Position numbers and translations under genes: made by a program
In this document: piece after piece, positions 10,933-11,453 of the stretch
Layout: the number at the start of each line of letters is the position of its first letter
Numbering within the stretch: position 1 is the stretch's first letter
Assembly (NCBI RefSeq): GCF_000328685.1
Contig: NC_019974.1
Location: 2,099,001 to 2,163,000 of the forward strand
Reading direction: 5' to 3'
From: Natronococcus occultus SP4
Lineage (GTDB): Archaea > Halobacteriota > Halobacteria > Halobacteriales > Natrialbaceae
DNA length: 64,000 bases
Notes under the pieces: model-generated
The model's database searches: none
The model's input: the letters and a program-made list of their open reading frames with translations, nothing else
Told to the model about the DNA's origin: nothing

Positions 10933-11013
10933 GCCAGGATGGCCGAACGGTAAGGCGCACGCCTGGAAAGCGTGTTCCCTTTGGGATTCTGGGTTCAAAT
11001 CCCAGTCCTGGCG
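10933..11013 (+). tRNA. tRNA-Ser (anticodon GGA)
   Basis: An 81-nt class II tRNA. The acceptor GCCAGGA pairs with TCCTGGC and is followed by the discriminator G. The D arm is GCCGAACGGTAAGGC. The anticodon stem CACGC/GCGTG encloses loop CTGGAAA with anticodon GGA (reads TCC and TCT). A long variable arm (TTCCCTTTGGGATTC) is diagnostic of serine, and the T arm is CTGGG/CCCAG around TTCAAAT. CCA is not encoded and there is no intron. A TATA-like GTTAAACG lies about 30 nt upstream. Confidence 0.96.
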
Positions 11014-11110
11014 TACTCTACCGCGAGCAAACTCACGAGCGGCAGCTACCCGATACCGGATTCGAATCAGGCCGAGGTTCTGCAAGCAACGCGAGCAGGC
11101 TCTCGGACGT

Positions 11111-11132
11111 GGTTCGAATCCCAGTCCTGACG
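11111..11132 (+). repeat. Partial duplicate of the tRNA-Ser 3' end (att-like scar)
   Basis: Twenty-two bases repeat the T-arm and acceptor 3' end of the tRNA at 10992-11013 with two mismatches (GGTTCGAATCCCAGTCCTGA then CG), followed by TTTTT. A repeated tRNA 3' end is the usual mark of integrase-mediated insertion. Here only about 100 bp lie between the copies, so an element would have been lost or reduced to nothing. The intervening DNA has no gene but contains another T-loop-like GGATTCGAATC near 11058. Confidence 0.7.
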
Positions 11133-11179
11133 TTTTTGCGTTTCACACCGGTAGCGGCGCGTAGTAACGCGTAGCCGCG

Positions 11180-11305
11180 CTACTGCTCGATCTCGACCGG
11201 CGTGTCGCAGGCGATCCAGCGGTCCGGATCCGAGCGCTCCCGAACTTCGAAGAACCCGTCCTCGCTGAACCGTGCCTCGTACTCCGACTGCTGGTTCGAT
11301 TCCAT
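11180..11305 (-). CDS. Small acidic haloarchaeal protein, function unknown
   Basis: An open frame of 41 residues starting MESNQQSEYEARFSEDGFFE and ending in WIACDTPVEIEQ. Its acidic composition and a final Trp-Ile strand resemble small conserved haloarchaeal proteins that I cannot name. It is divergent from the SRAP gene, sharing the AT-richer region 11306-11450, and its stop lies just past the tRNA-end scar. Confidence 0.55.
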   Translation of the reverse strand: MESNQQSEYEARFSEDGFFEVRERSDPDRWIACDTPVEIEQ

Positions 11306-11453
11306 ACCCGACCCGATCACGGGGGCCACTATGAGTACGTGTGGCGTACCACGGATCGACGGAGGAGAAATCGGCCCTTGGGTGACCGTTTCGTCGACGA
11401 AACGGTCGGCGACGAGTGGAGCATATTTGCTCGTGGAGCGCCTACTCGACTAC

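Follow-up and report, generated by a model that had tools for sequence, protein, structure and literature searches.

The duplicated 3' end of tRNA-Ser(GGA) in Natronococcus occultus SP4 is one copy of a dispersed double-hairpin repeat and not the scar of a single lost virus. The copy lies in a stretch of 64,000 nucleotides, referred to here as the window, and the feature that contains it is a slightly decayed member of a class-wide family of tRNA-linked hairpins. On balance we think it probable that the site is one unit of a haloarchaea-wide set of noncoding hairpin cassettes that are anchored at tRNA 3' ends and recombine there. Reading duplicated tRNA ends as att scars, left by lost viruses or islands, is routine, and the preliminary description of this locus took the same course. 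Many of those in haloarchaea are parts of two-hairpin units, and haloarchaeal att and island annotation needs correcting.

The tRNA-Ser(GGA) locus

The intact tRNA-Ser(GGA) and the 22-nt copy of its 3' end with two mismatches, both noted in the preliminary description, were confirmed (Table 1), and the 98 bp given there for the gap between them was right within one base (97 bp, 11014 to 11110). The direct repeat, GGTTCAAATCCCAGTCCTGGCGT at 10992 to 11014 and GGTTCGAATCCCAGTCCTGACGT at 11111 to 11133, is 91% identical over 23 nt, with a start-to-start distance of 119 bp. There is no gene in the 97 bp between the two tRNA-Ser ends, and in a search of Rfam 15 with the window region and six loci, tRNA was the only family above threshold. 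A guide RNA of the H/ACA or C/D type directed at the T-arm was also considered, but inspection by eye showed no box motifs.

Table 1. Parts of the tRNA-Ser(GGA) locus in the window
Feature	Position	Strand	Basis and remarks
tRNA-Ser(GGA), intact	10933..11013	+	ARAGORN and Rfam; the unit repeats its sequence from the T-arm to the 3' end
Hairpin 1 (HP1), imperfect in the window	11014..11048	+	Sequence; starts directly at the tRNA-Ser 3' end
Anti-T-arm GGATTCGAATC	11058..11068	+	Inverted repeat I2 and fold; reverse complement of the T-arm copy
Core hairpin, core A (CCGAGGTTCTGC ... GCAGGCTCTCGG)	11069..11110	+	Dispersed across the genome and the genus
Copy of the tRNA-Ser 3' end (T-arm and acceptor strand), two mismatches	11111..11132	+	Repeat comparison; closes the unit
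Probable relic: hairpin 1 of a second, truncated unit	11133..11181	+	By eye; inferred from resemblance to hairpin 1 of G002

The segment between the two ends that had been described as T-loop-like is present, but its sequence is that of the T-arm copy in reverse complement. Both the inverted repeat and the fold have this anti-T-arm and the copy pairing around the core hairpin. The copy has TTCGAATCC in place of the TTCAAATCC of the tRNA itself (A57G), and the anti-T-arm carries the matching C. HP1 pairs better in the units of sister genomes than it does in the window. A small open reading frame of 49 amino acids (window 11180 to 11329, minus strand) adjoins the unit, and similar sequence was seen by eye after tRNA-Ser in sister genomes.

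Units behind other tRNA genes of the same genome

To be counted as a copy, a sequence had to match the last 19 nt of a tRNA at 15 or more positions. The tRNA set comprised 49 genes with flanks (48 from an Rfam tRNA search plus Trp), from which four tandem Asp/Thr genes were left out to give 45. A cognate copy was present 50 to 200 nt downstream of 18 of the 45 genes and upstream of none, and noncognate 3' ends reached the same score in 38 of 2046 comparisons. With a stricter criterion (at least 11 matches to the last 12 nt) the counts were 17 of 45 downstream, 0 of 45 upstream, and 8 of 2046 for noncognate ends. A chance repeat is ruled out by these cognate, downstream-only counts together with the reversed-pattern control described below.

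When the genome was searched with the region, many further places matched the sequence between the two tRNA-Ser ends, as was also the case in all nine genomes of the genus. The loci listed lie mostly just 3' of other tRNAs (Met, Ser-TGA, Glu, Gly, Leu, Phe, Val, and Trp), and each unit is terminated by a copy of the 3' end of its own tRNA. For example, the core of the second Trp unit is 95% identical to the Ser-TGA core in the window genome, each with the end of its own tRNA, and the two units behind Val-GAC in the same genome have identical hairpin 1 and core sequences. Several other tRNAs are followed by what, by eye, seem to be decayed units. No unit was seen downstream of the four Ala-TGC genes, which from their context we take to be rRNA-operon copies.

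Unit architecture and folding

The units share one layout: tRNA, hairpin 1, a linker, the anti-T-arm, the core hairpin, and the copy of the T-arm and acceptor strand, often with a second unit in tandem behind the first. Removal of duplicates from an initial 143 units left 135, and the anti-T-arm could be located in 121 of these; tRNA-to-copy spacings outside 50 to 190 nt were excluded, and the covariation and fold statistics use the 121. Median unit length is 129 nt (range, 94 to 194; 121 units), compared with about 119 bp in the window, and the cognate end copy takes up about 21 to 22 nt in the sampled units. The anti-T-arm and the end copy pair across the core to form one long second hairpin (HP2). 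The median fold z-score was -4.0, with values below -2 in 51 of 60 sampled units.

There are several core families, whose sequences are unlike one another and in which the hairpin is retained. Many have tandem G.A steps and a GCGAAGC tip; as DNA, d(GCGAAGC) folds into a mini-hairpin of unusual stability. The conserved T-loop that most tRNAs share is complementary to the generic anti-T-loop, GGATTTGAA.

In the loop of the T-arm copy a single additional base is common (e.g., TTCACAATC), as in the Arg-CCG, Lys-TTT, and Ala-CGC units of the window genome and in a Trp unit elsewhere (L293). This recurrent extra base would spoil the copy as a T-loop and leave the hairpin intact.

Covariation of the anti-T-arm with the tRNA-end copy

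The anti-T-arm covaries with the copy. Beyond the T-loop, the pairing run between the anti-T-arm and the cognate copy averaged 5.42 with one bulge allowed, versus 4.30 when the partners were permuted; without a bulge the values were 3.71 and 3.09. None of 1000 permutations of the 121 units reached the real pairing sum, a count that gives no clean probability because many of the units share history. The fit is imperfect, as the cognate run was shorter than the unit's own noncognate mean in 32 of the 121 units. At position 57 the pair was A-T in 107 units and G-C in 7, with 7 exceptions. A plain target-site duplication does not explain the part of the anti-T-arm that lies beyond the T-loop and is specific to the tRNA. 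An origin of the anti-T-arm from a snap-back capped end looked unpromising by eye, because the complementarity for the most part ends inside the T-stem.

Distribution across haloarchaea

Of 292 genomes of the class, 236, representing 70 of 77 genera, contain the HP2 pattern, GGATTTGAA-N28-58-GTTCAAATCC, which had no match in the other 56. The reversed pattern, used as a control, had no match in the 292 class genomes. In a sample of the phylum the HP2 pattern was present in 27 of the 33 genomes that belong to the class and in none of the 163 that belong to other classes. Core A is present in three taxonomic families (f1, f2, and f6).

Thirty pattern loci were fetched; 27 of them follow a tRNA whose 3' end recurs there as a cognate copy with 15 or more matches in 19. 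Two of the remaining three (L219 and L220) lie by relic tRNA ends and the third (L227) in an open coding stretch, as judged by eye. At tRNA-Ser(GGA), a copy within 300 nt downstream was found for 56 of 120 genes (119 stretches) among the matches listed, and none of the 120 genes listed had one upstream. The preliminary description had considered that the same 140 bp in all relatives would point to a stable tRNA-derived sequence, and these counts are not what such a sequence would give.

A virus was considered as a vehicle. A scan of viral contigs for core A gave a single match (L085), which lies in coding sequence without T-arm context and is a chance match.

Turnover between close relatives

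Eight of the nine Natronococcus genomes have a unit at tRNA-Ser(GGA). The ninth (G008) does not, and its empty site is too diverged for the exact junction to be placed. In another genome (G007, L036:1850-4900), about 3.1 kb separate the unit from a further imperfect tRNA-Ser end. This stretch holds a gene of the FemAB/GNAT type, as well as a sequence that resembles a tRNA but has an odd anticodon loop.

Seven pairs of Halorubrum loci at tRNA-Ser have a 40-bp leader that is 100% identical, and identity over the first 60 nt downstream is 0.92, 0.89, 0.63, 0.61, 0.59, 0.58, and 0.56 in the seven pairs. From these alignments, hairpin 1 at Halorubrum tRNA-Ser appears to be either kept or exchanged between relatives. 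A closely similar type of Halorubrum hairpin 1 was also found by eye after Asp-GTC, there with the Asp end. At tRNA-Arg(CCG) of the window genome and two sister genomes (G001 and G008), the anti-T-arm and copy are alike and the core hairpins unrelated. Units come and go, are duplicated, and are exchanged among closely related genomes. The variability of the segment between the tRNA-Ser ends that followed from the preliminary description is thus borne out by the unit-less G008, the first-unit swaps in Halorubrum, and the additional 3.1 kb in G007; its view of that segment as the leftover of a deleted element is not.

In Halorubrum distributum (L113), the sequence beyond about 320 bases of the query is a dispersed repeat that matches many places in Halorubrum genomes and is probably an insertion sequence or a MITE.

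Comparison with described systems

We could not match the hairpin family to any described kind of element. The literature search covered open-access PMC, with subscription papers and bioRxiv outside its scope, and found no description of hairpin units in tRNA tails there.

In hairpins of the IS200/IS605 type, a guide located 5' of the foot pairs with sequence 3' of the hairpin. The units have pairing of this kind, between the anti-T-arm and the T-arm copy on either side of the core hairpin. However, elements derived from IS200/IS605, such as PATEs and REP-like sequences, are recognized by the lack of a target duplication, and the sampled units have cognate end copies. A MITE-like element would make a target duplication of constant length; the sampled units have cognate ends of about 21 to 22 nt, and no clean pair of filled and empty sites was obtained.

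Integrons carry arrays of cassettes behind a fixed site, and their attC sites are paired as single-strand hairpins with bulged bases. Any likeness to the units would be one of working only; pairing and tandem arrays were seen in the units. Unlike integron cassettes, the units have no cargo gene, no IntI was found, and the attachment sequence differs from tRNA to tRNA.

The attL/attR scars left by archaeal tyrosine recombinases (Haloquadratum walsbyi examples in PMC3119063; review, PMC8371274) share with the units a direct repeat from T-arm to acceptor beside an intact tRNA. In contrast to such scars, the repeat here belongs to a fixed noncoding unit of about 130 nt, found behind many tRNAs, with an inverted T-arm and hairpins and with no integrase seen, and islands insert between the tRNA and the unit. 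The direct repeat of the tRNA end expected of an integrase element is present, but no integrase was identified between the repeats in the window or in the one open reading frame tested in G007, and the units are not limited to one or a few sites. The SMRs and PATEs of Haloquadratum are likewise short, noncoding, dispersed, palindromic, and haloarchaeal, but as described in PMC3119063 they cause no target duplication, whereas the units carry a cognate tRNA copy of about 21 nt and lie at tRNA ends. Another archaeal palindrome in tRNA trailers lies about 10 bp downstream of approximately half of the tRNA genes of Methanopyrus kandleri (PMC5217627); it differs in being a motif of about 20 nt in one species and has no tRNA-end copy, second hairpin, or tandem units.

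Recombining cassettes or structured RNA

The data fit cassettes that recombine at tRNA 3' ends better than they fit a scar, and a reading of the units as structured RNA stays alongside. Under the cassette model, units would turn over and spread through recombination events at tRNA 3' ends. Each incoming unit would enter at the border between tRNA and trailer and leave the tRNA intact, and the tRNA end would be duplicated to become the unit's own end. Because the generic anti-T-loop matches the conserved T-loop, many tRNAs could receive a unit, whose stem would then adapt to the local copy. Candidate actors are a recombinase that recognizes the folded strand and homologous exchange between units. 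Several results weigh against cassettes. No recombinase was linked to the units, no vehicle emerged from the viral-contig scan, and no clean pair of filled and empty sites was found among the strains compared. The imperfect fit of the anti-T-arm, and its tRNA-specific part that a plain target-site duplication leaves unexplained, count against them as well. Furthermore, hairpins flush with the tRNA end suit an RNA role too.

A bolder version of the cassette model, which we regard as doubtful, is a class-wide platform that is still active. Units would move as folded single strands, the anti-T-arm would find the T-arm by pairing, and a dedicated haloarchaeal recombinase would join them at the tRNA 3' end in arrays that are harmless to the tRNA. 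If this were true, haloarchaea would have an integron-like platform with the tRNA set as its landing sites.

It is possible, if somewhat unlikely, that the unit is instead transcribed, as the 3' trailer of the pre-tRNA. In that case hairpin 1 would sit flush at the RNase Z cut, the anti-T-arm would lock the extra T-arm copy and keep it from competing with the real one, and the structure would serve in processing or termination or as a stable small RNA. This possibility is consistent with the position of the units, which start at the tRNA end on the tRNA strand, with the first paired base at +1 in 49 of 121 units and at +1 to +4 in 96. The fold was more stable on the tRNA strand in 99 of the 121 units. 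Single mismatches in HP2 were G.T in 49 cases versus A.C in 27 and so lean to the tRNA strand, but those in HP1 (8 G.T and 9 A.C) have no strand bias, and the recurrent mismatch positions are not independent. In Halorubrum Asp-Asp tRNA pairs, only the second tRNA has a unit behind it, which also speaks for this reading. A hairpin upstream of a termination site functioned as a terminator in Haloferax volcanii (PMC7237163). However, more than half of the tRNA genes of the window genome have no unit, and the tRNA-Ser unit is missing in a sister species. Nor would structure alone require a near-perfect cognate acceptor copy, and from one close relative to the next whole cores and whole hairpin-1 sequences are replaced.

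The questions that the units raise concern the enzyme that moves or exchanges them, their possible cotranscription with the pre-tRNA, and the reason for their presence behind so many tRNAs in a single archaeal class.

We think it improbable that the units are neutral palindromes, neither element nor function, produced at tRNA ends by tandem duplication and by template switches during replication and mutationally corrected into hairpins. Tandem units, imperfect stems, mosaic hairpin-1 sequences, and replacement of the core with the hairpin kept are all in keeping with such an origin. However, the same core families turn up behind different tRNAs and in more than one taxonomic family, which local slippage cannot produce, and the restriction to one class would be left unexplained.

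An integrase island at tRNA-Arg(CCG)

The preliminary description had treated the tRNA-Ser copy as what remains of an integrated element that was deleted, or of nested integrations, and we consider such a scar the least probable of the origins, although tRNA 3'-end direct repeats are typical of attL/attR and the gene-bearing 3.1 kb of G007 lies between tRNA-Ser ends. This reading is disfavored because the units are dispersed with cognate ends: the unit of about 119 bp in the window itself recurs throughout the class behind tRNAs of many kinds, and the same architecture of about 130 nt is found in most genera. No integrase was seen at the tRNA-Ser locus of G007, where the one open reading frame tested matched FemAB/GNAT.

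A true integrated element in the window genome looks different. tRNA-Arg(CCG), at 2220399 to 2220471, has a 31-bp identical copy of its end about 35 kb away (2185410 to 2185430). At the far end of this interval (G000:C1:2185410-2220471; L040 and L060), a tyrosine-recombinase open reading frame adjoins attR. It matched the phage integrase models PF00589 with 27.6 bits (cutoff, 27.1) and PF02899 with 30 bits. An ordinary unit with the Arg end lies just outside the far copy, so that the element separates the tRNA from its unit, which also argues against an integrase element as the origin of units. In G001 and G008 the Arg unit is directly behind the intact tRNA-Arg. Because the unit lies outside the far copy in the window genome and flush with the tRNA in those two genomes, islands are taken to use the same tRNA end and to push the unit outward. 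In G005 a copy without a tRNA body precedes the Arg unit.

A relic of a tRNA-Val 3' end lies directly 5' of the unit at L220, and the adjoining sequence, judged by eye, resembles the beginning of an integrase gene of haloarchaeal type. This is probably another island that displaced a unit.
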